Assembly: GCF_001644665.1 (NCBI RefSeq)
Contig: NZ_CP011393.1
Coordinates: 434,001 to 498,000, forward strand
From: Fervidobacterium pennivorans
Lineage (GTDB): Bacteria > Thermotogota > Thermotogae > Thermotogales > Fervidobacteriaceae
Reading direction: 5' to 3'
DNA length: 64,000 nucleotides
Made by a program: the position numbers and the translations under genes. Shown in pieces: positions 27,367 through 41,282 of the stretch (position 1 is its first letter; each line of letters opens with the position of its first letter). The notes under the pieces are model-generated. The model ran no database searches and was not told the DNA's origin. It was given only the letters and a program-made list of their open reading frames with translations.

Positions 27367-28248
27367 TCAGTCAATTTTACGTCCTGTGAGCTTAAGAAAT
27401 ACATCCTCCAGTGTGGGATGTCTTAGCACGAAGTTCCTGACGTTGGCTTTCAGAAGTTTTTCAATAATGGGTACTGGGTCTGTTACGGAAACGTATGCAT
27501 ATTCTCCTGTAATTATCATTCCTTCAAGATTAATCTTTTCTGCGTACTGCTTTGGGAACTCGATGACAGAGTTCAATCCCGACGATGAAATGAGTTCCTG
27601 TGGTGTTCCATGAGCAATAACCTTTCCGTGGTCCATGATATATACCCTATCTGACAGTTGGTGTGCTTCCTCCATATAATGCGTTGTAAGAATTATCGAT
27701 TTTCCTTCCCTTTTGTATTTTAGAATCACATCCCAAAGGTGTCTTCTTGCCTGCGGATCCAAGCCAACTGTTGGTTCGTCCAAAAAGACGATATCGGGAT
27801 TATTCAAAAATGCTAGGGCAACCGCTAGTCTTTGTTTTTGTCCGCCAGAAAGATATTTAGTTCTTGCTTTCAGTTTTTCACCTAACTGGAATGTGTCAAT
27901 TATCTCTTCGAAATCCGCTTTCGTGTTGTAAAGCGATGCATGCAATCTAATGGTCTCAAATACGGTAAGTTCTTCGAAAAAGAAATTTTCCTGTAGGCAG
28001 ACTCCTATTCTCTCTTTTACTTCATTCGTTATTTTTTCGTATTTTTCAAAATAGACTATTCGACCACTATCGGGTTTCCTCAGACCTTCGAGCATTTCAA
28101 CAGTCGTTGTTTTACCCGCTCCGTTTGGACCAAGTATAGAAATGATTTCTCCCTTCTTTAGTTCTATTGAAACTCCATCTACCGCTTTTACTGAAGGGTA
28201 ATATTTCTTAAGGTCTGTAGCTACGAGTGCAAAATTATTTTCTGTCAC
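27367..28248 (-). CDS. ABC transporter ATP-binding protein (ABC-2 exporter)
   Basis: Nucleotide-binding subunit energising the two flanking permeases. Walker A GPNGAGKTTTVEML (about residue 38), signature LSGGQKQRLAVA (about 137), Walker B IVFLDEPTVGLD and the switch His in ILTTHYMEEAHQL are all present, of the CcmA/DrrA type. The GTG start at 28248 follows TAGGTG by seven bases; a GTG at 28257 lies inside that ribosome site. It sits between two permease genes, all on the - strand. Confidence 0.93.
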   Translation of the reverse strand: MTENNFALVATDLKKYYPSVKAVDGVSIELKKGEIISILGPNGAGKTTTVEMLEGLRKPDSGRIVYFEKYEKITNEVKERIGVCLQENFFFEELTVFETIRLHASLYNTKADFEEIIDTFQLGEKLKARTKYLSGGQKQRLAVALAFLNNPDIVFLDEPTVGLDPQARRHLWDVILKYKREGKSIILTTHYMEEAHQLSDRVYIMDHGKVIAHGTPQELISSSGLNSVIEFPKQYAEKINLEGMIITGEYAYVSVTDPVPIIEKLLKANVRNFVLRHPTLEDVFLKLTGRKID

Positions 28249-28271
28249 ACATATCACCTACCAAAATTTGG

Positions 28272-29273
28272 CTATCTATCCTCTGAATGCAAAAATTTCC
28301 TCATAGCAAAACTTGCAATCGTTAGTCCCGAAAAAATGAAGATAGTGTTTATCGTATAGAAGCTGAAATCATCGAGCACAGGTATATTGTAGACCTTTTG
28401 AAATAACAAATGTACGTACCTTGGTGTTGTAAGATAAGAAACGGAACGAAGGACCTTCGGTAAGAAATCTATGGGGAAGTAGACACCAGAGAAAAAGATG
28501 AAAATCGTGTAAATTATTTGTGCAACGCTCTGTGCTGCGTTTTTGAATAGAAGGCCTATAATCGTACCAAGCGCAAGGTTCACTGAGACGGAACTTATCA
28601 CAACTAGCAAATACTCAGGTAATTGTGAGAGACTCACGATGAGATTCGCACCAAATATAAATTTTGAAAGTAAAAGTACAGCAAAAGACGAAATGATTCC
28701 AGTTATCATATTAGCACTGGCGCAACCTAAGAGCAGTCTTAAAGAAGATATTGGAGTCACGGAAAGTCTTTTGAAAAGTCCGTATCTTACGTATTCGGAG
28801 TAAATGCTAACTCCTGCATTCATTCCAACAGAAAGTAAAGAAATAGCGATAACTCCTATCATTATGTACTCAAGAGCTGTCAGCTCTTTACCAACCTTCA
28901 CATCGTTCAAAACAACTTTCACAGGGGCGCTTGAACCCCTGCTTGTATACCGTAGTTTAAAAACCTGGAGTTCATAATCAATTTGCAGAAGATTGGACTT
29001 TGCGAAAACCTGGATTTTTCCATCATTGCCAATGATAATTGCATCGTATGGGCTACTTTTTATCTCTTCATTGGTTGGAATATCTGAAAGCTTAGTCCAG
29101 CTCTCAAAATCAATATTTACATCCCTATCTGAATAAAAAGCAACAGACGCACCAGTCTGTTGCTTTCCAAATACTGCTCCAAACAAAATTAAAAAGACAA
29201 TAGGGAGAAGAATGTTCATGAAAAACAAGAACCTGTTCCTAATGTTAACAAGAAAAAAAGAGTAAAATAGCAT
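28272..29273 (-). CDS. ABC-2 type exporter permease (first)
   Basis: A 333-residue membrane protein with an N-terminal helix (LFFMNILLPIVFLILFGAVFG), an extracytoplasmic domain, then a helix-rich C-terminal half (IMIGVIAISLLSVGMNAGVS onward; YTIFIFFSGVYFPIDFLP is the typical ABC-2 region). It pairs with the ATPase and permease that follow. It starts 33 bases after the Omp-alpha gene, and an intrinsic terminator-like hairpin lies about 107-139 bases into its coding sequence. Confidence 0.87.
   Translation of the reverse strand: MLFYSFFLVNIRNRFLFFMNILLPIVFLILFGAVFGKQQTGASVAFYSDRDVNIDFESWTKLSDIPTNEEIKSSPYDAIIIGNDGKIQVFAKSNLLQIDYELQVFKLRYTSRGSSAPVKVVLNDVKVGKELTALEYIMIGVIAISLLSVGMNAGVSIYSEYVRYGLFKRLSVTPISSLRLLLGCASANMITGIISSFAVLLLSKFIFGANLIVSLSQLPEYLLVVISSVSVNLALGTIIGLLFKNAAQSVAQIIYTIFIFFSGVYFPIDFLPKVLRSVSYLTTPRYVHLLFQKVYNIPVLDDFSFYTINTIFIFSGLTIASFAMRKFLHSEDR
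29135..29166 (-). terminator. Intrinsic terminator-like hairpin inside coding sequence
   Basis: On the - strand a perfect 12-bp stem (AAAGCAACAGAC with GTCTGTTGCTTT), 6-base loop, with a run of five T at its 3' edge. It lies inside the 5' part of the ABC permease gene, about 140 bases after the Omp-alpha stop codon. Confidence 0.7.
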
Positions 29274-29306
29274 GTTTCACTCTCCTGATTGTAGTCTACT
29301 GTCTCC

Positions 29307-32300
29307 TTACTTCCCTATTACTAAGTAAGTAACGATACCAATTATTGCTAAGCCTAAAATAACTAACCAGCTTTTTAGATTTTCATTCTCTGACTTTAGC
29401 TCTCTCAGTTGTTTCTGCAAATCGTTCACTGTTTCCGAAACTTGTGATAACTGTTCGCGGTCTGCTTTACTTTCTGAAAGTTTCTTCAATTGTTCATTTG
29501 TGAAGATTATGTTTTGCTCATTTTTTTGATCGTATATCTTTAAGGTTTCAACTTCCTCTTTCAGTTTAACTAAGTCGCTTGAATTTTTTTGAGCTGTTTG
29601 TTTAACTTCCAAAAGTTCATCGTGGATTGTCCTTTGAGCTAAATCTATTTTCTCAATCTTTTCGGTTAACATTGCTTCAACTTTGCTGATTCTTTCAATT
29701 ATATCGTTTTGAAGTTTATCGAGGTTTTCATAGACTTTTGTTGTCATGTCGTTGAACTTCGCGTCCACCGTATCATTGGTGGCCATGTTCCCAATTAAAA
29801 TTTCAAATCTGGAAATTCTCTCATCGATGTTTACAAGCTCATTTTGTATGTTGGCAACAATTTCATGTTCTTCGTCTAAGCGTTTTGTCAAAACTTTTAT
29901 GTTGTTTGTTACCTCCTCGTTGGTTTTTGTTGTAAAGAGTTCTAGATTACTGTACTTATTAAGCACGTCATTTATCCTCTTCTCATGCTCGTTCAGGATG
30001 TTTTTCAAATTTGAAAGTTCGTCTTTTGAAGTGTTTTGAGCAATATTTAATTCATCTATTGATTTTGCAAATTCCTTTGTTCTACTGTCAAGTTCGTTGA
30101 AATTTTTTTCCAAAAGGTCCAATTTAGGTTCGAAATGCGACAACTTTTCACCAAGTGCAGAGACTATGACAACCATTTTGTCAAAGTCTTCCTTTGAAAG
30201 AGCCTGTTGATGAAATTCAAGCTTCTGAATTTTTCCTTCTAGATCTGAAATTATCATTCTCATGCTTGCGATTGCTTTGTCAGTTTCCTCTGCTTTCTGT
30301 GTGAGTGCGTCAAATTTTGCTTCCAGAGCTGATACTTTATCGTCACGTACCTCAACAGTCTTAGTAAGCATTGTGGTTTGCGTTTTGAGATCATCAATTG
30401 ATTTGGTTATCGAATCAACTCTGTTTTTTAAATCACTGAGCTCAGCATTTATGGTGCTATAGCTTGCTTCAGGCAGCCTTGTAGTTTGATACGCTGCAGT
30501 ATCAGTGCCTTTGTTCGCATTTTCCTTTGGAGCTTCTACATTTTGCAACCTATTTTGAATTTCTTTTACTTTGTCTTGGAGATCCAAAACCATGGATAAT
30601 ACTTTTTGAACATTTTGGTTAACGGAATTAAGCTGAGCGGTTGTTGCTCTTTTTTGAACGTCGTCTTCTACCTTTTTGACTTTATCCTTCAAAGAGTTTA
30701 CCTCCGATAAAAGGGCTTGATAACTTGATTCCTGAGCAAGCCTTGAAGATATATTTGCTAACTTCAAAGATAGGTCGTCAGTTATTTTTGAAAGTTCGAC
30801 ATATTTGTCAGAGATAGTTTGCAATTTTTCTTCGATTTCATCAATTCTTTTGTTTTTCCTTTGAATATCTTCAGCTAAGGCTTGGACCTTAGAGTTATCA
30901 ACAGGAATCAATCGGAGCTCCGTAATCAACTCTTTGATCGACTCTATCTGCAACCTAAGTTCCTCAATTTCATCTTTTTTCGCATAATTTTCATTTGTTA
31001 GGTATTTATCCTCCAATAGTTTTACCTTTTCTACTAAAGAATTTATGGTAACCTCGATACTTGATAATCGTTTCAAACTTTCTTCAAAGGCTTTAATTTC
31101 AGCACTTTCAAGGATCTTTGCTTTGAGTTCTTCGATTATTGTTTCGCTATATTTTAGTTGGGAAGCAAGCTGTACATTGGCTTCTTCTTGTTTTCCTGAA
31201 GTCTTGTCTGAAAGTTTTTGGATTTCCTTTGAGAATTCATCGAGTCTTTCCCTTATCTCTTGGTTTTCGCCAAGAAAATTTTCAAGAGTTTTAGAGACCC
31301 TATCTACAGACTGTTTAATAAGATTGACTTGGTTCTGAATATCTTCGTCATTCTTTGAAAGTTTAGCTATAGTTTCCTGTATCATATTGATTTCCGCAAG
31401 TACTGTTGATATATCTTGTTCATCCAAGGATTGAGACTGTTGAGGAATCGTTTTTTCTTTTAAAGTTCTGAGCTCTGATATCGAATTCTGGATTTCAATA
31501 ACTTTGTTATTTAACTTCTCAACGTCGGTTTTTAAAAGTTCAAGCAACAACAATCTCTCTTTCAACTCTTTAATTTCTGTTTCAACTGTGCTGATATCTT
31601 CTGAGGTAGGTTTCTGGACTTGAAGACTACTTTCAAGTTCTTTCAGTCTGGAATTCAAGGTCATCTCGAGTTCTTTCAATGTGTTATTTATCTTTGATAT
31701 CGAATCTGAGAGGGCTTTAGAAGATTTTTCAAGGGTTTCCAAACGGGAACTTAAATTTGAGTATTTGTTGTTTAGTTCTTCTAAGGATATCCTCAAGGAG
31801 TCTTGAGCTGCACTTAATTTGTCTACCTTCTGATCTACAGCATTAAGAGAATTGTTTGTTTTATTAAGAGCTGAAATGTAACCTTTAAGATCTTCGGATA
31901 CTTTCTTCAGATCCTGTGAGAGCTTGTTTAAAGATGTTCTAAGTTCTTCTGTATCACTTTTGAAATTTGATTTCAGGTCGCTTTGCTCATTTTTGAGTGT
32001 TTCAACAGACTGCTTAATATCTGAAATTTGACTCTGTTGAGGCATGTCGAGGAGTCTTGCTTGAATGTTTGAAATTTTGTTATCGATATCTCTTAGACTT
32101 GAATCAAATAAAGAATACAACCTATACAATAACATGGCAACCTGGAACCTTGTTACAGTTTCATTCCCTCTAAACGTTCCATCTGGAAAACCTGATACGA
32201 TTCCTAGGTTTGTAAGTTTCTCAACAGCTTCGTAAGCCCAGTGTGATTGTGGAACATCCTTGTATTCTCCATACAAAAGCACAGAAACAAAAAGAACAAA

Positions 32301-32336
32301 GGTAACAACTACCCTTCCCCAAATACTCTTGCTCAT
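29307..32336 (-). CDS. Omp-alpha type toga spacer protein (SLH domain, coiled coil, C-terminal anchor)
   Basis: A 1009-residue structural protein. A signal peptide (VVVTFVLFVSVLLYG) is followed by a single SLH domain (DVPQSHWAYEAVEKL to TRFQVAMLLYRLYS, about residues 27-85), which binds the cell wall. About 900 residues of almost unbroken heptad coiled coil follow, and a C-terminal hydrophobic helix (WLVILGLAIIGIVTYLVIGK) anchors it in the outer sheath. This is the layout of Thermotoga Omp-alpha, a rod that spans the periplasm and holds the toga. The ATG is seven bases after AGGGGGG. An IS6-like element has inserted just upstream of that ribosome site. Confidence 0.92.
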   Translation of the reverse strand: MSKSIWGRVVVTFVLFVSVLLYGEYKDVPQSHWAYEAVEKLTNLGIVSGFPDGTFRGNETVTRFQVAMLLYRLYSLFDSSLRDIDNKISNIQARLLDMPQQSQISDIKQSVETLKNEQSDLKSNFKSDTEELRTSLNKLSQDLKKVSEDLKGYISALNKTNNSLNAVDQKVDKLSAAQDSLRISLEELNNKYSNLSSRLETLEKSSKALSDSISKINNTLKELEMTLNSRLKELESSLQVQKPTSEDISTVETEIKELKERLLLLELLKTDVEKLNNKVIEIQNSISELRTLKEKTIPQQSQSLDEQDISTVLAEINMIQETIAKLSKNDEDIQNQVNLIKQSVDRVSKTLENFLGENQEIRERLDEFSKEIQKLSDKTSGKQEEANVQLASQLKYSETIIEELKAKILESAEIKAFEESLKRLSSIEVTINSLVEKVKLLEDKYLTNENYAKKDEIEELRLQIESIKELITELRLIPVDNSKVQALAEDIQRKNKRIDEIEEKLQTISDKYVELSKITDDLSLKLANISSRLAQESSYQALLSEVNSLKDKVKKVEDDVQKRATTAQLNSVNQNVQKVLSMVLDLQDKVKEIQNRLQNVEAPKENANKGTDTAAYQTTRLPEASYSTINAELSDLKNRVDSITKSIDDLKTQTTMLTKTVEVRDDKVSALEAKFDALTQKAEETDKAIASMRMIISDLEGKIQKLEFHQQALSKEDFDKMVVIVSALGEKLSHFEPKLDLLEKNFNELDSRTKEFAKSIDELNIAQNTSKDELSNLKNILNEHEKRINDVLNKYSNLELFTTKTNEEVTNNIKVLTKRLDEEHEIVANIQNELVNIDERISRFEILIGNMATNDTVDAKFNDMTTKVYENLDKLQNDIIERISKVEAMLTEKIEKIDLAQRTIHDELLEVKQTAQKNSSDLVKLKEEVETLKIYDQKNEQNIIFTNEQLKKLSESKADREQLSQVSETVNDLQKQLRELKSENENLKSWLVILGLAIIGIVTYLVIGK

Positions 32337-32352
32337 ATATATGCCCCCCTTG

Positions 32353-32360
32353 TTAGAAAT
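32353..32360. repeat. Target-site duplication, left copy
   Basis: TTAGAAAT, directly next to the left terminal repeat of the IS6-like element; identical to 33420-33427. Confidence 0.9.
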
Positions 32361-33419
32361 GATAATGTTAACTAAAAGTATTGAAACTTTCCAAAAACCG
32401 CATTATCCTTATAAAGAGGGGACACCCCCCAACCAACTCTCGACAAAGCAGGTTCCCCGATATGAACAACTCAATGCTCTCTTGTCCCAAATGCGGTTCC
32501 ACCAGCTTGTACAAAAATGGTCATGACAAATACGGTAACCAACAATTCCTTTGCAAACTCTGCCATCATTCTTTCAAACTCTCCCATTCTCACAAACGCA
32601 AAAACTTCCCTTTCCCTTATCCCAAATGCACTTCTTGTGGTAAATCTATGCAAATTTACAAAGTCCATCGCTCTTTCGTTGTCTTCCGTTGTAGAGCTTG
32701 TCGTACCAAAGATAGAGTACCTTTTAACCTCCCCGAACCAGTCACCCTTATTCCTGAGAAATTTAAATATTTCCGCTTCCCTATCTTTTTCGTCTTAAAG
32801 GCTTTTGTTTTGTATATGAAACACAATATGTCTTATCGCTCTCTTGCTCATTCTCTTAATATCAAAGTATCTCATGTCACCATATACAAATGGGTTATTA
32901 AATTGTGTACTTTATTCTCTGTACTTTTTCCAACATTTACCATCGAAAATGTTTTCTCAGTTCATGCTGATGAAACTGTTCTTGTGTTCAAAGAACAAAA
33001 GTACTATGTTTGGCTATTAGTTGATCACGAAACTAACTTAATTCTTTGTTGGCATGTCTCAAAGTATCGTGATATGGGACAAGTCAAAGTATTACTCGAG
33101 AAGTTCTTTGGTGATTCAAAACCTAAAAACATTGAACTTATTACTGATGGACTTGGTGCATATGAAAGTGCAGTAAAGCTGTTGTTCAGAAATATCAATC
33201 ACGTAGTGGTACCGCTCGGTAAAAACAATCAATGTGAATCTAAGTTTTCATTGTTGAAAGACTTTTTCCGACTCAAGCGAGGGCTGAAGAATACGAAGAA
33301 CTTAGCGAAATATATTCAAGGATTTTGTGTAGTGAAGAATCTTTGGAAAACGCACAATGGCAATATCAATCGCATTCTTTCACAATTACACTCTTTCATC
33401 ACTACAAGTTAACACTATC
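32361..33419 (+). mobile_element. IS6-like insertion sequence, 1059 bp
   Basis: Bounded by imperfect 19-bp terminal inverted repeats: GATAATGTTAACTAAAAGT at the left and, inverted, GATAGTGTTAACTTGTAGT at the right (15 of 19 match). An 8-bp direct repeat, TTAGAAAT, flanks it; 8-bp duplications are typical for the IS6 family. It holds one transposase gene reading away from Omp-alpha. Ends and duplication are intact, so the insertion looks recent. Confidence 0.93.
32462..33412 (+). CDS. IS6-like DDE transposase with two N-terminal zinc ribbons
   Basis: A 316-residue transposase. The catalytic triad is Asp 170 (VHADETVLV), Asp 229 (LITDGLGAY) and Glu 259 (NNQCESKFS), with the spacing of the IS6/IS240 DDE domain. 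The N-terminus carries two Cys pairs of zinc-ribbon type: C8/C11 with C31/C34, and C56/C59 with C77/C80. A helix-turn-helix follows (SYRSLAHSLNIKVSHVTIY). I use the ATG at 32462; an in-frame TTG at 32381 would add 27 residues that lack family likeness. The gene appears intact. Confidence 0.92.
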   Translation: MNNSMLSCPKCGSTSLYKNGHDKYGNQQFLCKLCHHSFKLSHSHKRKNFPFPYPKCTSCGKSMQIYKVHRSFVVFRCRACRTKDRVPFNLPEPVTLIPEKFKYFRFPIFFVLKAFVLYMKHNMSYRSLAHSLNIKVSHVTIYKWVIKLCTLFSVLFPTFTIENVFSVHADETVLVFKEQKYYVWLLVDHETNLILCWHVSKYRDMGQVKVLLEKFFGDSKPKNIELITDGLGAYESAVKLLFRNINHVVVPLGKNNQCESKFSLLKDFFRLKRGLKNTKNLAKYIQGFCVVKNLWKTHNGNINRILSQLHSFITTS

Positions 33420-33427
33420 TTAGAAAT
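33420..33427. repeat. Target-site duplication, right copy
   Basis: TTAGAAAT, directly after the right terminal repeat of the IS6-like element; identical to 32353-32360. Confidence 0.9.
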
Positions 33428-33447
33428 TCTGATAATGATTCTATTCT

Positions 33448-33478
33448 ATTATAACAAATATATTATCAATTTTGACAA
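33448..33478 (-). promoter_or_regulatory. Probable original Omp-alpha promoter, displaced by the IS
   Basis: On the - strand TTGTCA, 19-base spacer, TGTTATAAT (extended -10). Without the IS this would lie about 50-60 bases upstream of the Omp-alpha start. It is now over 1.1 kb away, with the IS between. Confidence 0.5.
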
Positions 33479-33551
33479 GAAAAACTCTCGATGTGTTTAA
33501 GTTGTATTAAATGCTTTTGGAATAATGGCACGCATTTTGTAAAACAAAAAC

Positions 33552-35153
33552 TCAGTTGTTCGAAAAATGCTCTTGTAAAAACTCCATAGTTTGAACATCC
33601 AGTGTAGAAAAATCTTCTGCCTTTATTCTGTGTGCGTTTTTGGAACCAATACCAGGTATTGATGTTAATTCTTCGAAAGTCAATTCAGATAGAGAAACTC
33701 TTCTAACACCTGTTAATGACCTGTGTCCATGTCCTACCACAACAATATCGGAAGGCTTATCGAAATCAGCGGGGACACCTATCAAAATAGGGTATGTACC
33801 AAGCGGTCTACCAAACGTGACTTTGCCTTCCTTAAATTCTGGAATGACATTTTCTATAACACACCCGATAGGGAATACCCGTTTAAGCATAGGGGTGTCC
33901 ACGTTATTTCTAGTAAGATATTTGTAGTGTTCGAAAAGCTGTTTGTTTACTTTCAATGTTTTCCTTTTGGAGAGGTGATATATTGGGGTACCTGGGAAAA
34001 TTATTAACTGGCGCAGGTTTATCCTTCTTAGTAACAGTCCATTTTCCAGATACTCCAACAATTTTTGATAGTTTATTTCATAAGTTTTCTTTGTCTCACC
34101 AAATAAACCAAATATCAGATTTATTCCTGGAAGTAGTTTTGGAATGCCGTTCTTATCTCTAATTCCTCCGATTTCATTGACCACTCTTACGGCGGTATCG
34201 ATGTCTTCAACTTCACCGTCTATGTTGTTCTTTTTTCTAACAACAGGGTCAAAACTCTCCACACCAAATGATAAGATGTCTCCTGCTGTGTTGTATTTAA
34301 CAATGGTTTCAACGATCCTCGCTGAATGAGGAAGATTACGGGAGATATAGGCGGGGTTTGCGTTGTCTGTATGTAATACTCTAATCTCTGGACACGAATT
34401 TCTTATACCACTGTAGAGTTCTTCAAGAGCTAAAGGGTTTATTGAACCTGCATTCCAATCACTACCAAAAGCAATTATATTCGCACTTCTCCCAAGTCTA
34501 AATGCACGAACACCGTGTTTGTATAATTCAGATATTTCATCAACAATATCTTGAACAGGTCGAGAGAAAAATCTTTTATGCAATAAAGGTTCCGTACAAA
34601 ACGTACAATACGTTCTGCGTTCACAACCTAGTGAGACTTCTACTTCAGCGATGATATTAGGAAACCTCGGATGCAGGACTACAATTGCAGCTCCTGTCTG
34701 AGATGCTACTCTTATCGCTTTTGTATAATCTTCTGAAAGAGTTTCAGAAATCCACTTTCCGATGTCATCAACAAATTCTTCGGCTTCGATATCTGATGTT
34801 TCTCTGGCAATTTTCCCTCCGGATGATGCAAACGCCCTTGCAATAGCTCCCATCAATATTCTGTAAGAGGAATTTGAGTTGGTAAATACCCTATTGACTT
34901 CTTCAGGTGTTATGGGTGTTCCACCAACGTACTTTCCTGGTACCGTAGTACCACCAATTATTACAAGGTAATCATAACGAGAAAATGCGTGCCAAAGGTC
35001 CTTGGCACGCACATCGTCTATCGTATAATAGTCTACCTCATATCCCTTCAACATAAACACGCCTGCGACGTATCTAACATAGGTGCTGATATAAGGTGGA
35101 ACGCCCAAAACCGCGGGTTCGTCAACGTAACCATCAATAATTGCGCAACGCAT
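33552..35153 (-). CDS. Radical SAM protein with CX5CX2C cluster motif and C-terminal HhH
   Basis: A 533-residue protein. Residues 1-170 form a Rossmann-like region that may be a B12-binding-type domain (YLVIIGGTTVPGKYVGG). The cluster motif is Cys 177, 183 and 186 (CERRTYCTFC), a CX5CX2C spacing instead of CX3CX2C. Downstream elements FGVESFDPVVRKKN and LPGINLIFGLFGET fit a radical SAM barrel. The C-terminus has a helix-hairpin-helix (SIPGIGSKNAHRI, about 500), suggesting contact with nucleic acid. It overlaps the preceding gene by 20 bases. The reaction is unknown; RNA or nucleic-acid modification is a guess from the HhH. Confidence 0.8.
   Translation of the reverse strand: MRCAIIDGYVDEPAVLGVPPYISTYVRYVAGVFMLKGYEVDYYTIDDVRAKDLWHAFSRYDYLVIIGGTTVPGKYVGGTPITPEEVNRVFTNSNSSYRILMGAIARAFASSGGKIARETSDIEAEEFVDDIGKWISETLSEDYTKAIRVASQTGAAIVVLHPRFPNIIAEVEVSLGCERRTYCTFCTEPLLHKRFFSRPVQDIVDEISELYKHGVRAFRLGRSANIIAFGSDWNAGSINPLALEELYSGIRNSCPEIRVLHTDNANPAYISRNLPHSARIVETIVKYNTAGDILSFGVESFDPVVRKKNNIDGEVEDIDTAVRVVNEIGGIRDKNGIPKLLPGINLIFGLFGETKKTYEINYQKLLEYLENGLLLRRINLRQLIIFPGTPIYHLSKRKTLKVNKQLFEHYKYLTRNNVDTPMLKRVFPIGCVIENVIPEFKEGKVTFGRPLGTYPILIGVPADFDKPSDIVVVGHGHRSLTGVRRVSLSELTFEELTSIPGIGSKNAHRIKAEDFSTLDVQTMEFLQEHFSNN
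34982..35010 (-). terminator. Terminator-like hairpin inside coding sequence (weaker)
   Basis: On the - strand a 9-bp stem (GCGTGCCAA with TTGGCACGC), 6-base loop, then ATTTTCT. Lies about 145 bases into the radical SAM gene. The T run is only four and starts after an A. Confidence 0.45.
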
Positions 35154-35877
35154 TCTTAATCTCCTTTGCAGTGTTTTCAGATGCTTTAATCAGCTTTACG
35201 TAGTAGTTTCCAACCTTGAATTCTCCAGCCAGTTTGTTGATTTCTAACTCGAGAACTTTTCCTTCTTTGTCATAACCTGAGATTTTTATAAAGTCCTTCC
35301 CTTCTGACGTGGTTGCCCAAAGGAAAAACTTTGAAAGAGAATATAGCTCTTCAGGGAGCACGAAATTGTCAACAAGTTTGTATTTACCAATCAAGTTCTT
35401 TATATCAAACTGCTTTGGAAACTTGTTTATGTACATAGTCGTTGTTACATCTGCAACTTTTCGTACAACACGCATTATTTCGCCAGACACTACGAAGATT
35501 TCCAAGGAAAAATATTCTTCAACAAATTTGTACACACCATCTTTTGATATATCCAATTTTTTTGCTTTCACATACTCGTAAGCTATATCTGACAAATCCT
35601 TGATTTGAAAAGTTCGCACAAGCACATTTGAGTCCCCTATGTAGTACTTATCTTTCAGTTTTACCCAAACAAAACGTTCAGGACTTGAAACAATCACAAG
35701 CTTATAATCTCCACTCTCGTAAACTTCCTCAGCACGCATGAAGGTGCTAGATTTACTAGTCTCATATACCATACGAACATAATATCCATCGGAGTAAGCA
35801 ACCGTGGAAAAAGAAAATACAAAACAAACAATAAAAGCAAAAAGCAAATAACTCCACTTTAGTCTATTTTCAGGCAC
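35134..35877 (-). CDS. Exported RseB/LolA-like protein of the sigma-factor operon
   Basis: A 247-residue protein with a signal peptide (YLLFAFIVCFVFSFSTVAYS). The mature part alternates strands (YYVRMVYETSKS, YKLVIVSSPERFVWVKLKDK, TTMYINKFPKQFDI), the pattern of the LolA/RseB fold that binds lipids or lipoproteins. Together with the sigma factor and the membrane protein just upstream, it resembles the rpoE-rseA-rseB order of E. coli, where RseB protects the anti-sigma factor in the periplasm. The fold assignment is by appearance only. It starts 37 bases after the candidate anti-sigma gene. Confidence 0.6.
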   Translation of the reverse strand: MPENRLKWSYLLFAFIVCFVFSFSTVAYSDGYYVRMVYETSKSSTFMRAEEVYESGDYKLVIVSSPERFVWVKLKDKYYIGDSNVLVRTFQIKDLSDIAYEYVKAKKLDISKDGVYKFVEEYFSLEIFVVSGEIMRVVRKVADVTTTMYINKFPKQFDIKNLIGKYKLVDNFVLPEELYSLSKFFLWATTSEGKDFIKISGYDKEGKVLELEINKLAGEFKVGNYYVKLIKASENTAKEIKNALRNY

Positions 35878-35913
35878 GTCAACCTCACCTTACTTTCAGA
35901 AAGGATTTGAGTA

Positions 35914-36309
35914 TCACCAATCTCCGTCGCTTGCTATCGCTGTATACCTCAGAGTTTTAAAAAGCAGGGCTTTCATGTTGTTCTCATCCATGTTCTGACC
36001 GTTTGTTAACGTTTTCGAATTCGAAGAGAGGGGCTTTTGATTTTCAATTGTTTGTAGTATTGCCGAGAAGTTTTCACTGATTCTAAAAGATTGTGCACTT
36101 TCGAATTTTGTGAACAGTATTAGAAATGCGATAGTAACTACGATTCCTATTTTAAAAAACATTCTTTTCAGCTTGCTTCTCTTTATCTTTCGAATAATCT
36201 TTTCTTCCATCAATGGACCAGGTTTGTAAGAATACTCCTTAGCGATAAATTTTGTAACAAAACTGGACCCGCCTATGTTTGTAAAGTTTTCATGGTTCTT
36301 CCTGCTCAT
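35914..36309 (-). CDS. Candidate membrane anti-sigma factor
   Basis: A 131-residue single-pass protein: an N-terminal cytoplasmic part of about 50 residues, a membrane helix (MFFKIGIVVTIAFLILFTKF) and an outside part. No HxxxCxxC zinc motif of the ZAS type is present. Its place, overlapping the end of an ECF sigma gene by 20 bases, and its layout argue that it sequesters that sigma factor. The ATG at 36309 is preceded by GGGGAGG nine bases upstream, inside the sigma gene. Confidence 0.6.
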   Translation of the reverse strand: MSRKNHENFTNIGGSSFVTKFIAKEYSYKPGPLMEEKIIRKIKRSKLKRMFFKIGIVVTIAFLILFTKFESAQSFRISENFSAILQTIENQKPLSSNSKTLTNGQNMDENNMKALLFKTLRYTAIASDGDW

Positions 36310-36967
36310 CACCTAATGCCTCCCCTAAAAGCTTCCTCAACTGCCTTTTTATATAATGTAACTTACTCTTTATTGTTCCCTCGGGTTTGTCCAGTATTTT
36401 CCCGATTTCTGCATATGTTAAACCGTCAACTTCTTTCATATACAAAATAGCTCTATCTTCAGGATCTAATTTAGCTAAAGCTTCATTCAATTTTTGCATA
36501 ATTTCCTCATCTGACAAGGTCTTTTTAATATCATCCTCAGAACTGACCTGACTGTGGTATTCACTGAACTCTTCGTCATCCGTTGATTGTTCAAAATCAG
36601 TCAGTATACTTCTGCGCTTTAACTTCTTATATAGGTTGTTACATACGTTCATTGTTATTTTGTAAATCCACGTTGCTAACTTCGAATCACCACGGAATTT
36701 CTTGACCCCTTTGTAAACTCGAAGAAAAACTTCTTGAATTACATCGTCGACATCATCTGAGCCTAAGAAACTTTTAACTAAAGCACCTATCTTTGGACCG
36801 TAGGTTCTATACAGATATCTGTAAGCTCCTTCATCACCCTTTGCTAGGGCTCTTATTAACTTTTTCTCATCGTTCCAATTATTTTGACCATCGAGTTTCT
36901 CAAATCGTTCAATATCCGAATTATTTTTCATCTCGGAAAATTTGGAAGATTCCAATTTTCTCACCAC
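36290..36967 (-). CDS. ECF-type RNA polymerase sigma factor
   Basis: A group 4 sigma-70 factor, up to 225 residues. Region 2 spans about residues 45-115 (YRYLYRTYGPKIGALV, DDVIQEVFLRVYKG, KLATWIYKITMNVCNN), and region 4 about 165-215 (LDPEDRAILYMKEVDGLTY, AEIGKILDKPEGTIKSKLHY). It should direct transcription of an envelope-stress or similar regulon. The GTG start at 36967 overlaps the DUF72 gene by 47 bases; an ATG at 36931 is possible. It is followed by a candidate anti-sigma factor and an RseB-like protein. Confidence 0.92.
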   Translation of the reverse strand: MVRKLESSKFSEMKNNSDIERFEKLDGQNNWNDEKKLIRALAKGDEGAYRYLYRTYGPKIGALVKSFLGSDDVDDVIQEVFLRVYKGVKKFRGDSKLATWIYKITMNVCNNLYKKLKRRSILTDFEQSTDDEEFSEYHSQVSSEDDIKKTLSDEEIMQKLNEALAKLDPEDRAILYMKEVDGLTYAEIGKILDKPEGTIKSKLHYIKRQLRKLLGEALGDEQEEP

Positions 36968-37769
36968 CTACAAGGGTTCTAAACATTACAGCGTTTTTCA
37001 AAGCCTGTCCACGGTAGCAGTTATTGAAGAAAACAAATCGCTTTGTTGACGGTAACGAAAGAAGTTCGCTAGCAATCTCTCTCAGCTCGGATTCCGAGTA
37101 ATTGTAATCGTAACGCGTTTTTTCGTCAGCAGTAAACCATTTCGGATTTCGACCATGTAAACGGATATACGTGGAATCTTCTTTTGCACTGTACTCAGTA
37201 CTAAAAGAATACAAACCTGGTAATTTCGGAAGGTCGACAACGACTATGTGGAGATAAGGACTGAATTCTTTCAGCAAAAGCCAAACATCATCCCTTTTTA
37301 CCCACGTCGAGTTTCTAAACTCTATGAAAAGTTCAATTTCCTTGCTTGTTATTTCTTCAGCAAGCTTCTTTAAAAACTCAACGTGTTCATTAGAGTATTT
37401 AAACACATACGGAAATTGGGCAAGGTAACCTACCATTTTACCTTCCTGCTTTATAACATTTGTATTCTTTAGGAAATCCTTGAGATTTTCTATGTTTCCA
37501 TCGTGTGTTATAGAACTATGAAGTTTTAGTGCGAATTTGAAACCTGGAGGCGACTTTCTCAATAAAGATACTATGGTTCTATATGAAGGCATTTGGTAGA
37601 ATGTATAGTTTAACTCCACTGCATTGAAACCGTAATTCTGCCAATAATAATTAAACATCTCGCTGGATTTAATATAATCAGGATACACTGTTCCTACCCA
37701 GTCGTCGAACGAAAAACCGCTTGTTCCAATAAACCAAAGAACACGTTTTTCTTTTTCTTTTTCTTCCAT
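36921..37769 (-). CDS. DUF72 family protein (YecE-like)
   Basis: A 282-residue protein of the DUF72 family, a TIM-barrel of unknown function. Characteristic elements: FIGTSGFSFDDWVGTVYP near the N-terminus, YWQNYGFNAVELNYTFYQMP, FKFALKLHSSITHDG, LFIEFRNSTWV and FFNNCYRGQALKNA at the C-terminus. The ATG at 37769 lies five bases after the helicase stop, with GGAGGG 13 bases upstream; a TTG at 37790 overlapping that site is the alternative. Confidence 0.88.
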   Translation of the reverse strand: MEEKEKEKRVLWFIGTSGFSFDDWVGTVYPDYIKSSEMFNYYWQNYGFNAVELNYTFYQMPSYRTIVSLLRKSPPGFKFALKLHSSITHDGNIENLKDFLKNTNVIKQEGKMVGYLAQFPYVFKYSNEHVEFLKKLAEEITSKEIELFIEFRNSTWVKRDDVWLLLKEFSPYLHIVVVDLPKLPGLYSFSTEYSAKEDSTYIRLHGRNPKWFTADEKTRYDYNYSESELREIASELLSLPSTKRFVFFNNCYRGQALKNAVMFRTLVGGEKIGIFQIFRDEK

Positions 37770-37774
37770 TTTGT

Positions 37775-39721
37775 TTATCTGACCCTCCAATATTCAACTA
37801 AGTAAGGAGGTATATCCTCAACAAAGTCACGTTCAATTTTTCCTGTCCTAAAGTAGTCGCTTCGAGAAAAAACGGAATGAGTTATATAAAGCATATCTTT
37901 AGCTCTGGTTATTGCAACGTAAAATAGCCTTTCTTCTTCGTCAAGAGAACCATCTTTCAGAGCCAAGAAGTGTGGGAAATCACCTGGATTGACACCTATG
38001 ACAAAGACTATCTTCCACTCTAAACCTTTTGCTTGATGGACTGTTGTCAACGTAACTTTCCCGCCTTCATCTTCGTTTCTGTCAAGTTCAGCTTCTCTTG
38101 CCTCAGATATTATTAGCTCGCTTAAGAATTCCTCTGTAGAATTGTAAAACGATGCCATTTCAATAAGCCTTTCAATATCTTCCTCTCTGTCTCGGAAATC
38201 TTGGTAGTGGTATTCAAGAATGCTTTGATAAAAATCTTCATAGAAATTTCTTATCTGCTCGCTTGGACCTTTACCAAGAGAGTTGTAAATAACGTTTTTC
38301 AGTACATCTATGTTAGCACTCTTAACATTAAGACTTAAGAACCGTCCTATAGGGTCTTCTGTCGATGTTATTTCATTTGCAATCCTTTCAGCTTTTACAT
38401 CTCCTACGTTTTCAAGCATTTTCAAGATTCTAATCCATGAAATAACATCGTAAGGATTTTCCAAAATCTTCAAAAATGCTATAACGTCTTTTGCGTGAGC
38501 AGTTTCCGTAAATCTGAGACCTGAGAGTATTTTGAAAGGGATGTTATTTTTTGAAAGTTCCAACTGTAATTCCAACGAGTGGGAATGGGCTCTGTAGATT
38601 ACAGCTATATCACTGTAGTTTGCGCCGTCGTTCACATGCTCGATAATTCTTTGAGCAACAAATCGTGCTTCATCAAAATGGTCATAAGTATTAACAACGA
38701 CAGGTTTTTGGGAACTATAGCGAACTGCTCTTAACTTCTTAGGCACTGATGACCTTGGTATCATTGAATTCACTAACTCAACTATTTTATCAGTGCTTCT
38801 GTAGTTGGTTTGTATTTTAAACACATTAGCACCTTCCATAATCTCTTTAACGTTTTCAAATCGTGCCCCTCTGAATGAGTATATACTTTGCGCATCGTCG
38901 GCTACGACAAAGAGATTGTTGTGAACCTGACTTAAAAGCTGAACGATTTTTAATTGTAGTATATTTGTATCTTGGAATTCATCAACTAAAATCCATTTGA
39001 ATTGAGACGAAATACGTTCACGAACATCAGGTTTTTCTTCGAGAAGCATAAGCATCTTAAGCAACAGGTCGTCGTAATCTAAGACGTTCTGTTTTTCTTT
39101 TTCAATGGCATACTCTTTAAATATATTTTCAATCACATCAATGACGTTTATCCATCTTTTTGCACGTTTAACTATGACTTCATATGGAGTTTGAAGGGTA
39201 TTGTTCATAAATGAGTATAGTGAGTAAAGCTCGTTCGGAGTTGGGAGTGCTTTACTCATCTGCTTTGATGTTACAAAACGACTTCTGACCAACTTCATCA
39301 AATCTACAGAATCATCCTCATCTAGGATTGTAAAGTTTGGTTTGAGACCTATGCTTGAACCATAACGTCTAAGCAAAACATTACACACATGGTGAAACGT
39401 TCCTGAAAGCATTCCAGAGAGCTCTCTTTTAGTTACTTTCTGTGCTCGCTCTATCATTTCTTTTGCTGCAGCTCGAGTAAATGTAACTAAGAGTATTTCC
39501 GAAGGTTTTACTCCATTTCCGAGAAGATATGCAATTTTGTAAGTGATTACACGGGTCTTCCCGCTACCAGGACCTGCTATGACAACACTCTTACCAAAAG
39601 AGTTTAAAACTGCATTTCTCTGCTCAGCGTCGAGCTCGTTCATTATCTCGGTGATTATTTTCTCAGTTATTCCATTCGTGTTTTCTAACTTGTAGTCTTT
39701 AACTTCTCTATCTCGATTCAT
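37775..39721 (-). CDS. UvrD/PcrA-like superfamily 1 DNA helicase
   Basis: A 648-residue 3'-5' helicase. Motif Q/I: AGPGSGKTRVITYKIAYLL (residues about 48-66); II: VDEFQDTN; III: ADDAQSIYSFRGA; IV: QTNYRST; V: TTVHQAKGLEWKIVFVIG; VI: YVAITRAKDMLYIT. All motifs are intact. It is somewhat shorter than UvrD/PcrA (about 720). Role in repair or replication-conflict removal is inferred from the family. Start ATG at 39721 (an upstream GTG at 39727 is possible). It follows the PHP gene by 28 bases. Confidence 0.94.
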   Translation of the reverse strand: MNRDREVKDYKLENTNGITEKIITEIMNELDAEQRNAVLNSFGKSVVIAGPGSGKTRVITYKIAYLLGNGVKPSEILLVTFTRAAAKEMIERAQKVTKRELSGMLSGTFHHVCNVLLRRYGSSIGLKPNFTILDEDDSVDLMKLVRSRFVTSKQMSKALPTPNELYSLYSFMNNTLQTPYEVIVKRAKRWINVIDVIENIFKEYAIEKEKQNVLDYDDLLLKMLMLLEEKPDVRERISSQFKWILVDEFQDTNILQLKIVQLLSQVHNNLFVVADDAQSIYSFRGARFENVKEIMEGANVFKIQTNYRSTDKIVELVNSMIPRSSVPKKLRAVRYSSQKPVVVNTYDHFDEARFVAQRIIEHVNDGANYSDIAVIYRAHSHSLELQLELSKNNIPFKILSGLRFTETAHAKDVIAFLKILENPYDVISWIRILKMLENVGDVKAERIANEITSTEDPIGRFLSLNVKSANIDVLKNVIYNSLGKGPSEQIRNFYEDFYQSILEYHYQDFRDREEDIERLIEMASFYNSTEEFLSELIISEAREAELDRNEDEGGKVTLTTVHQAKGLEWKIVFVIGVNPGDFPHFLALKDGSLDEEERLFYVAITRAKDMLYITHSVFSRSDYFRTGKIERDFVEDIPPYLVEYWRVR

Positions 39722-39749
39722 TATCACACCACCATTTGTATACTTATTT

Positions 39750-40601
39750 TCAGAACAACCTGGATAAGAACTTACCGATATGTCTGAATGGAATGTTCAT
39801 TCCAAGCTTTATATTGGGTCTGTTATCTCCATGGAAGTCACTTCCTGCGGTGACCACCAAATTGTATTTTTCCGCGATTCTTAATAATTCTTCTACCTGA
39901 CCGGGCAAATGTGTTGAATAATACGCCTCCACACCGTCCAAACCTTTTGAGACCAAATATTTAATCAAATCTTCAAGAGTTTCAATTTCCGGAGCTATTG
40001 GATAAGGTTTACCCTCGTGAAGTGTTTGGTATGGGTGTGCCAATATGGCGATGCCACCTGATTCTTTTATCAATTCGATGGCTTCCTCTGGCTTCAGTCT
40101 TTTTTTCTCAACAAAAAATAATCCACCATCTTTTAGATATTTTTGGAACGCCTCTTCCATGCTTTGCACGTATCCTTTTTCCACCATCAGACGAGCAAAG
40201 TGGGGTCTACCAATCGCTTTGCCCTTTGCCACTTTTTTTAGTTCTTCCATTGTAAGCTTGAATCCGTGTTGATTCATCTTTTCAAGAATTAGTTCGTTTC
40301 TTTTGTTGCGATATTCGATTAACTCATTTAATACTTTTTCGACTTTTTCCGAATTGTCGAAGTTGTAACCTAAGATATGCAAGCTGTCGGTTGGATATTC
40401 CGCACTGATTTCCACTCCTCGAATAAGTAATAACTTTGGGTCTTTGTAAACGGTCTCATCAATTTGATGGAACCCAGTTATTGTATCATGGTCAGTTATT
40501 GCGAGCACCTCTAATCCTATCAATTTTGCTTTTTCCACAAGTTCCATTGGCTTTAGAGTACCATCTGATGCAGTTGTATGCGTATGAAGATCCAAAACCA
40601 A
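39750..40601 (-). CDS. PHP-domain phosphoesterase
   Basis: A 283-residue metal-dependent phosphoesterase similar to the YciV / RNase AM group. DLHTHTTASDGTLKP, AITDHDTITGF, RGVEISAEYP, GRPHFARLMV, LAHPYQTLH and AGSDFHGDN supply the four PHP motifs with their His and Asp ligands. Members act on 3',5'-nucleoside bisphosphate or 5' ends of RNA; which applies here is not known. The TTG start at 40601 is six bases after GGAGGG. The leader is part of a 16-nt inverted repeat shared with the divergent HD gene. Confidence 0.88.
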   Translation of the reverse strand: MVLDLHTHTTASDGTLKPMELVEKAKLIGLEVLAITDHDTITGFHQIDETVYKDPKLLLIRGVEISAEYPTDSLHILGYNFDNSEKVEKVLNELIEYRNKRNELILEKMNQHGFKLTMEELKKVAKGKAIGRPHFARLMVEKGYVQSMEEAFQKYLKDGGLFFVEKKRLKPEEAIELIKESGGIAILAHPYQTLHEGKPYPIAPEIETLEDLIKYLVSKGLDGVEAYYSTHLPGQVEELLRIAEKYNLVVTAGSDFHGDNRPNIKLGMNIPFRHIGKFLSRLF

Positions 40602-40614
40602 AGCAATCCCTCCA
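40599..40614 (-). repeat. 16-nt inverted repeat, left copy (ribosome site and start of the PHP gene)
   Basis: On the - strand TGGAGGGATTGCTTTG, ending with the TTG start codon. Identical to the + strand sequence at 40727-40742. Confidence 0.9.
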
Positions 40615-40652
40615 GATAAGTTTAACAATCTACTTTTTAAATTTCATGTTTT

Positions 40653-40677
40653 ATTATACCACGTTTTGTGGTATACT
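40653..40677. promoter_or_regulatory. Overlapping divergent extended -10 promoters in a palindrome
   Basis: TATACCAC and GTGGTATA form an 8-bp inverted repeat around GTTTT (40655-40675). On + it gives TGTGGTATACT, on - CGTGGTATAAT, so each arm is an extended -10 facing outward. The two genes on either side (40601 - and 40740 +) are divergent. Transcription from one side should interfere with the other; a repressor could also use the palindrome. Confidence 0.55.
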
Positions 40678-40726
40678 TAATTAAAGATACGTAGACAACA
40701 GATAAAATTTGAAAGTAATTTTGTTA

Positions 40727-40742
40727 TGGAGGGATTGCTTTG
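40727..40742 (+). repeat. 16-nt inverted repeat, right copy (ribosome site and start of the HD gene)
   Basis: TGGAGGGATTGCTTTG, ending with the TTG start codon of the HD-domain gene. Identical to the - strand sequence at 40599-40614. Confidence 0.9.
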
Positions 40743-41282
40743 AAAAGAGAAGAAGCTCTGGAGCTACTTAAAACCCATTTATCCAACAAAAACTTGATTA
40801 ACCACTGCCTGGCTTGTGAAGCCATTATGAGGCGTTTAGCTCGCCATTTTGGACAAGATGAAGAAACATGGGGACTTGCAGGGTTGCTACACGACCTTGA
40901 TTATGATTATACAAAGGACAAACCAGAAGAACACGGATTCAGAAGTGTCGAGATTCTTGGTGACTCTGTAAGCCAAGAGATAAAAGATGCCATCCTTGCA
41001 CATTGTGAAAAGAAAGTACCTGAAACTCTTATGGAGAAAGCGCTTTATGCCGTTGATCCAACGAGTGGTTTCATAGTAGCTGCCGCGTTGATAAGACCAG
41101 AAAAGAAACTCGCTTTTGTTGATGTTCCGTTTCTGCTAAACAGGTTTAAAGAAAAAGGATTCGCAAAAGGTGCAAATAGGGACCAGATGAAATCTTGCGA
41201 GAATATCGGACTTACATTAGAAGAATTTTACTCACTTGCTTTAGAAGCCATGAAAGAGATATCCGAGCAAATAGGACTGTAA
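40740..41282 (+). CDS. HDIG-type HD-domain phosphohydrolase
   Basis: A 180-residue HD protein. His in NKNLINHCLACEAI, the HD pair in LAGLLHDLDYDYTKD, His in EEHGFRSVEIL and AILAHCEKKVP, and Asp in YAVDPTSGF form the metal site. It resembles small HDIG phosphohydrolases of unknown substrate (nucleotide-like). The TTG start follows GGAGGG by six bases. It heads a + strand run with a membrane protein and thrS. Confidence 0.82.
   Translation: MKREEALELLKTHLSNKNLINHCLACEAIMRRLARHFGQDEETWGLAGLLHDLDYDYTKDKPEEHGFRSVEILGDSVSQEIKDAILAHCEKKVPETLMEKALYAVDPTSGFIVAAALIRPEKKLAFVDVPFLLNRFKEKGFAKGANRDQMKSCENIGLTLEEFYSLALEAMKEISEQIGL

Follow-up and report, generated by a model that had tools for sequence, protein, structure and literature searches.

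An RpoE–RseA–RseB-like candidate envelope-stress operon of the Thermotogota and its rewired variant in Fervidobacterium

The 64,000-nucleotide (nt) stretch of Fervidobacterium pennivorans DNA analysed here (NZ_CP011393.1, positions 434,001–498,000; 'the window', in whose coordinates all positions are given) lies in a 2.06-Mb single-contig genome and carries, entirely on the minus strand, an operon that encodes an extracytoplasmic function (ECF) sigma factor, a small membrane protein, an exported protein and a radical-SAM/HhH protein. A sequence-only reading of this stretch had drawn a parallel to rpoE-rseA-rseB of proteobacteria. The open reading frames (ORFs) are found where that reading had placed them, the sigma and middle genes overlapping by 23 nt and the exported-protein gene following 36 nt further on, and the parallel itself is upheld by the anti-sigma ancestry of the middle protein, the RseB-like predicted fold of the exported protein, and sigmaE-type sites before the sigma and htrA genes of relatives. 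With a probability of roughly 0.78, the operon is the form that the RpoE-RseA-RseB envelope-stress switch takes in the Thermotogota; we infer its mechanism from these likenesses. The window's genus holds the module in a rewired form.

Genomes were sampled from the order (n = 45) and from the phylum (n = 103). Throughout, f1 denotes the window's family (genera g1–g5, of which g1–g2 are the window's genus and the next genus), and f2, f3 and f7–f11 denote other Thermotogota families; f10 is presumably equivalent to Petrotogaceae, f9 to a Kosmotogaceae-like family, and genera g3–g5 of f1 to Thermosipho-like bacteria. The order sigma factor, small membrane protein, exported protein and radical-SAM protein, all on one strand, holds at all 41 loci of the order that were read first, with a small ORF of 95–150 amino acids (aa) after the sigma gene in 39 loci and also in L026 and L035. 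The exported protein is present in 41 of the 45 order genomes by single-sequence search and in 42 by profile search, the three genomes without a profile match being 60%, 71% and 92% complete. This retention, together with the constant gene order, indicates that the operon is not a chance arrangement. At phylum level, 67 of 103 genomes have a profile match for the exported protein, and in six further f9 genomes its place is taken by the gene of an exported protein that resembles it (L115 by a looser search, the other five by position and reading). The gene for the radical-SAM/HhH protein comes next in all 41 loci, as the operon's constant fourth member within the order. Viral contigs were scanned for further relatives of the module and none were found.

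Matches of the sigma factor to sigma family models begin near residue 33, and translation could alternatively start at codon 13, an in-frame ATG; the NCBIfam RpoE model also matches from residue 33, with a score below its cut-off. Among the four Sigma70_r2 matches of the window's genome, the operon sigma factor ranks third by score. An orthologue occurs in 93 of the 103 phylum genomes, one in each, and the window's protein shares 40–91% identity with 31 orthologues, region 4.2 being kept.

A single clear hydrophobic stretch is seen in the middle protein (best 19-residue window from residue 52); it is preceded by a Lys/Arg-rich stretch that suggests an N-in topology, and the protein contains no Hx3Cx2C motif. 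Neither this protein nor the exported protein of the window has a Pfam or NCBIfam match over cut-off; scattered matches of the middle-protein family to RhuM (3e-5, 2 of 37 members) were dismissed, as were weak Pfam matches of the window's proteins to OGG_N (0.0071) and Pox_LP_H2 (0.053). The middle protein could be an unrelated small membrane protein rather than an anti-sigma factor, a reading that would suit the absence of a family match and the cytosolic part of about 50 residues, and that is nevertheless highly improbable in view of its relatives. A profile built solely from the zinc-free proteins of the order and searched against 1451 ORFs of 45 other loci finds the ORF directly after the sigma gene in 13 of 13 loci of f7 and f8 (E 5.7e-16 to 1.2e-8), and all 13 of these orthologues carry Hx3Cx2C. 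When three of them were compared with Pfam zf-HC2 (cut-off 22.2 bits), L087 (31.0) and L090 (32.6) scored above the cut-off and L078 (16.7) below it; L087 also matches the NCBIfam 'anti-sigma factor' model at 8.9e-9, below cut-off. As the zinc-free profile reaches orthologues of the zf-HC2 type at the same place, the window's middle protein is, by this profile continuity, an anti-sigma factor by descent. The commonest Pfam match among 37 members of its family, Sigma_reg_N, points the same way, although it is weak (7 of 37, best 0.0015).

In a survey of 85 loci, 73 encode a membrane anti-sigma factor, the other 12 consisting of 11 f10 loci and one locus cut by a contig end. The Hx3Cx2C motif is present in 13 of these 73 proteins, all from f7 and f8, and is missing from the other 60, including that of the window, which had been described from its sequence as zinc-free. 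According to a published analysis (PMC7406223), about half of membrane-bound class I anti-sigma factors are zinc-free and groups of mixed zinc and zinc-free members are known, so that zinc loss by itself is ordinary. A tree of the sigma factors did not resolve the backbone. The anti-sigma domain of the window is furthermore truncated: helix 1-2 is lost, and the cytosolic part is 41–51 residues long in g1–g2. E. coli RseA begins with MQKEQLSALMDGET, and a crude pattern for such an xDGE-like helix 1 is found in f2 (10/10), f3 (13/13), f9 (13/15), f11 (2/3) and f7 (1/3), with none in f8 (0/10) or f1 (0/19). D11 in helix 1 of RseA is reported to contact R149 and R178 of RpoE, and helix 4 to bind sigma2 (PMC7406223). 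When 85 Thermotogota sigma factors were aligned with E. coli RpoE, the positions of R149 and R178 were Arg in all 74 ungapped rows outside the window's clade (one row being gapped) and Lys in 10 of the 10 sigma factors of the window's clade, whose anti-sigma factors lack helix 1. At the opposite end of the anti-sigma factor, the tail is strongly conserved: an Asp is invariant and a Gly is present in at least 90% of 37 aligned rows, and the last residue is aromatic in 68 of the 73 membrane orthologues, the exceptions being two proteins of f1 that end in Leu and three of f7.

The exported protein starts with a hydrophobic signal-like stretch, and its structure was predicted both with and without this segment. 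The full-length model, signal peptide included, has a mean predicted local distance difference test (pLDDT) score of 44.2, and RseB is already the first match in Foldseek (E 3.3e-3). For the mature protein (residues 28–247, aligned with one relative, L101), the best of five models attains a pLDDT of 70.8 and a predicted template modelling (pTM) score of 0.49. Against 350,542 PDB chains, the first Foldseek match of this model is E. coli RseB (2p4b_A; E 1.2e-5, probability 1.00, 275 columns, query TM-score 0.45), and every chain at ranks 1–34 belongs to RseB or the LolA superfamily; within the first 37 rows, RseB chains align over 263–280 columns, LolA chains over 141–178 and the LolA-superfamily protein 3buu over 214. 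VIA-align 2 places a sponge ependymin-related LolA-fold protein (Z 11.3), RseB 2v42 (Z 11.0, 137 residues) and LolA (Z about 10) in a tie, most of its rows spanning the N-terminal domain alone. MucB 6in8 aligns over both domains (Z 8.0, 184 residues) with a root mean square deviation (rmsd) of 6.0, and the C-terminal domain aligned to that of MucB 6in8 gives 66 residues with rmsd 3.0 and Z 4.4, in a low-confidence model for which KA1 domains tie. The exported protein is therefore predicted to adopt a two-domain RseB-like fold; the RseB/LolA likeness claimed from the sequence is borne out at the level of predicted structure, whereas the comparison of sequence profiles with RseB is negative. A search of PDB sequences with the profiles of the exported protein and the anti-sigma factor likewise gave no route to RseB or RseA.

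These data also bear on whether the locus is a plain ECF sigma/anti-sigma pair whose exported protein is a cotranscribed LolA-type carrier of lipids or lipoproteins, and so a target rather than a sensor. LolA proteins do score near RseB on the N-terminal domain, and the sequence offers no link to RseB, which would suit such a carrier. The exported protein, however, has a second, C-terminal domain that is absent in LolA, RseB chains align over many more columns than LolA chains, and the gene keeps a constant place directly after that of the anti-sigma factor and is lost jointly with the membrane and tail part of the latter in f10. We thus regard a carrier as improbable and retain an RseB-like sensor.

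The joint loss is seen as follows. In f10, the membrane anti-sigma factor is absent in 11 of the 11 loci read, and the RseB-like protein is absent from 21 genomes by profile (5 among the misses listed, 16 by elimination); HtrA is present in all 21. That the membrane part, the tail and the RseB-like protein are absent together suggests that tail and sensor work together. At 8 of the 11 f10 loci (L102–L112), the sigma gene is followed by one for a soluble 58–69-aa protein with a helix-1-like start, a stripped anti-sigma system. An RseC-family gene lies near the sigma gene in the 11 f10 loci read (PF04246, 1.4e-23 for L105); the RseC family was rejected as evidence for the window, given that 98 of the 103 genomes have it and that it lies near the sigma gene in f10 alone. 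The window's own genome encodes HtrA and a Peptidase_M50 site-2 protease (505-aa open frame), both of which may act on the anti-sigma factor.

Further evidence comes from putative promoter sites in the relatives. The pattern GAAC-N17/18-GTC was first written from, and is close to, the E. coli sigmaE consensus, and was counted within 110 nt upstream of the sigma domain. It is present in 56 of the 66 loci outside f1 (f2 10/11, f3 9/13, f7 3/3, f8 10/10, f9 15/15, f10 6/11, f11 3/3; one of the misses, L045, runs into a contig end), against a background rate of 0.018 per 110 nt in the same loci, both strands and real sites included. A T precedes GAAC in all 56 sites; in a few f10, f2 and f3 loci the site is so near the sigma domain that the start codon is doubtful. 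HtrA is matched in 98 genomes; for 43 of them, selected by hand over the families, the region upstream of htrA was read, and the same pattern is found in 29 of the 43 loci and in 29 of the 33 outside g1–g2 (f3 11/11, f2 4/4, f9 3/3, f8 2/2, and 9/9 in genera g3–g5 of f1, in which an A precedes GAAC). In most of the families read, the spacing between this site and htrA hardly varies. Follow-up of the regulon search covered 20 stretches, picked by hand and mostly around pattern sites; sites 37 and 99 nt upstream of a primase gene, judged dnaG-like from reading its sequence, were seen in two f2 genomes (L171, L173). A genome-wide study of T. maritima is reported to have found no RpoE motif (PMC3636130).

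Taken together, these features would be accommodated by the following mechanism, in which binding, shielding, proteolysis and signal are all inferred. The membrane-anchored anti-sigma factor would hold the sigma factor, its short cytosolic part packing on sigma; with the zinc site and helix 1-2 lost, the grip would be mainly through the pre-membrane helix, the equivalent of the sigma2-binding helix 4. The RseB-like protein, with its LolA-type cavity, would bind and shield the periplasmic part of the anti-sigma factor, most likely the SDG-aromatic tail. Envelope damage, sensed as unfolded sheath proteins or as lipid or lipoprotein in the cavity, would free the anti-sigma factor, which an HtrA-type protease and then a site-2 protease would cut so that sigma starts its targets. 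In Pseudomonas aeruginosa, the cavity of MucB senses lipids and MucA is released (PMC7400510).

A number of observations weigh against this interpretation. The profile of the exported protein shows no similarity to E. coli RseB or to a set of five RseB sequences (hhalign E 0.2–0.34), no Pfam RseB (MucB_RseB) or LolA match is obtained among 40 members of its family at E 0.1, and hhalign detects no sequence similarity between the anti-sigma factor and E. coli RseA. The predicted structure derives from a two-sequence alignment, and one of five models reached a pLDDT of 70, the others lying at 34.6–45.5. HtrA has other roles, and finding it in f10 therefore counts for little; all three f7 anti-sigma tails lack a terminal aromatic residue. 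The other nine f1 members are also without helix 1 in the anti-sigma factor and yet keep Arg at the R149 and R178 positions, such that the change at these positions tracks the loss of helix 1 only in part. Before the sigma gene, the promoter pattern is found in none of 19 loci of f1, and before htrA it is missing in g1–g2 (0/10), f11 (0/3) and f10 (0/1). Across 11 genomes, the pattern with its flanks occurs 63 times and its backward control 54 times, with 7 occurrences of each in the window's own genome; as the counts resemble the control, they show neither a wider regulon nor use of the site by the window's species. The ECF promoter that the sequence-only reading had suggested seeking upstream of the operon itself is hence absent in the window's family and present in most loci of the other families.

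The window's genus has neither the site before sigma nor the one before htrA, and its version of the circuit is thus rewired. At several Fervidobacterium htrA loci, TATAAT-like boxes are seen in place of the sigmaE-type site. The DUF72, uvrD-like and PHP genes upstream are on the same strand, which puts the sigma gene inside a longer gene row; a scan of positions 28000–41000 for sigma-70 promoters and terminators found no excess over shuffled sequences. The Fervidobacterium module may accordingly be thought of as decaying or constitutive, with sigma read from the longer row, no amplification of itself or of htrA, and a weak hold by the anti-sigma factor. The loss of both promoter sites, the overlapping DUF72 and uvrD-like genes in the row ahead of sigma, the loss of helix 1 and the R149K/R178K changes are all compatible with decay; against it, all three genes are open in the window and in its relatives, the tail Asp is invariant, and the identity to orthologues and region 4.2 of the sigma factor have been maintained. 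Decay is unlikely on balance, while retaining a real minority chance, and a rewired switch is preferred.

A more speculative extension of the switch, which we consider doubtful, is that the anti-sigma factor carries its own degradation signal. The SDG-aromatic tail would mimic a misassembled outer-membrane protein (OMP) in its aromatic C-terminus and would be capped by the RseB-like protein; an envelope lipid or sheath protein would uncap it, and the tail would then dock in the PDZ domain of HtrA or of the site-2 protease, leading to cleavage. As part of the same proposal, two lineages would have pared the anti-sigma factor from opposite ends, f10 keeping the soluble helix-1-like part and the window's family the helix-4, membrane and tail part. 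Were the self-signal real, brake and alarm peptide would be combined in a single molecule, whereas in E. coli the OMP tails are distinct from RseA.

If the operon is the switch proposed here, then a deep-branching phylum of sheathed thermophilic diderms has the sigmaE/RseA/RseB envelope-stress logic, together with promoters of closely similar architecture and htrA as a target, and an outer-envelope alarm of the E. coli type is open to study in a very distant lineage. It would become testable whether the response is ancestral to diderms or arose on two occasions out of a LolA-fold protein. The Thermotoga RpoE would gain a concrete promoter and a first target, and the families would constitute a natural series of anti-sigma reductions, with matching interface changes in one clade. 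A literature search, for which subscription papers were mostly out of reach, found no paper linking the Thermotogota operon to RseB.

The neighbourhood of the operon (Table 1) was considered with regard to the toga, since the sequence-only reading had suggested that the module may have evolved for this structure. The data do not show this: the sigma factor occurs widely among the Thermotogota, and the sole hint of the toga is an OmpA-like gene downstream of the radical-SAM gene, with SLH and coiled-coil families and a C-terminal hydrophobic stretch. OmpA-type proteins anchor the toga (PMC3387000), and, judging by locus numbers, the window's gene seems from its place to correspond to neither of the two F. 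nodosum OmpA genes listed there, which would make it a third. Nine loci of the Fervidobacterium clade were read at this place (the window, L101 and L218–L224), and eight have an OmpA-like gene there, as identified by reading, Pfam having been applied to the window's copy alone; at that place it is found in 0 of 9 loci of g3–g5 and 0 of 4 of f3. The exception is L219 (G013), where an insertion sequence (IS) and other genes occupy its place. The IS transposase copy after the radical-SAM gene of L219 has the same length as that of the window, with the first 75 residues nearly identical. The OmpA-like neighbour thus offers context for a toga-specific system rather than proof of one.

Table 1. Coordinates of the operon, its sub-features and its neighbours in the window
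Feature	Position	Strand	Details
ECF sigma factor (RpoE-like)	36290..36967	-	225 aa from GTG; Sigma70_r2 9.1e-16, Sigma70_r4_2 7.2e-14
Zinc-free membrane anti-sigma factor, RseA-like position	35914..36312	-	132 aa; 23-nt overlap with sigma
Transmembrane segment of anti-sigma factor, predicted	36103..36159	-	residues 52-70; hydropathy maximum at residue 52
Conserved C-terminal tail of anti-sigma factor	35917..35937	-	residues 126-132, IASDGDW
Exported RseB-like protein	35134..35877	-	247 aa; 36-nt gap after anti-sigma gene
Signal peptide of RseB-like protein	35797..35877	-	residues 1-27; cut place inferred from sequence
C-terminal domain of RseB-like protein	35137..35358	-	about residues 174-247; alignment to MucB 6in8
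Radical-SAM/HhH protein, fourth gene	33552..35153	-	Radical_SAM 2.9e-9; 20-nt overlap with exported-protein gene
DUF72 gene, upstream, overlaps sigma start	36921..37790	-	DUF72 5.1e-47
uvrD-like helicase, upstream	37775..39727	-	named from reading the sequence, without family search
PHP-domain protein, upstream	39750..40628	-	PHP 3.2e-12
OmpA (Omp-alpha)-like toga-anchor candidate	29307..32336	-	1009 aa; SLH 4.4e-15 and coiled-coil families
IS transposase between radical-SAM and OmpA-like genes	32381..33412	+	DDE_Tnp_IS240 9.9e-47

Compared with known systems, the operon is closest in layout to rpoE-rseA-rseB-rseC of E. coli and algU-mucA-mucB of Pseudomonas, sharing the order of sigma factor, membrane anti-sigma factor and a protein of RseB-like fold, which here is predicted. 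In addition, the GAAC-N17/18-GTC sites of the Thermotogota relatives are close to the E. coli sigmaE consensus, an xDGE-like helix 1 opens the anti-sigma factors of f2 and f3 and most of those of f9, as it does RseA, and the RseC-family gene close to sigma in the f10 loci recalls the E. coli operon. It differs from these systems in that the anti-sigma factor and the RseB-like protein have no detectable sequence similarity to their counterparts, in that the periplasmic part of the Thermotogota anti-sigma factor is short, variable and ends in an SDG-aromatic tail, and, with respect to E. coli, in that the fourth gene is radical-SAM rather than RseC and the window's genus is without the promoter sites. 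The f7 and f8 orthologues resemble the zinc class I anti-sigma factors RsrA, ChrR and RsiW (zf-HC2) through Hx3Cx2C, whereas the window's protein does not have the motif. The very short cytosolic part in the window's family, perhaps of two helices, is reminiscent of the class II pair CnrH/CnrY; CnrY, however, keeps the sigma4-binding first helix (PMC7406223), whereas the window's anti-sigma factor is without helix 1 and is of class I descent. LolA carriers are alike in the fold of the N-terminal domain (Z about 10, predicted model), and the RseB-like protein departs from them in its extra C-terminal domain, its anti-sigma neighbour and the lack of a Pfam LolA match.

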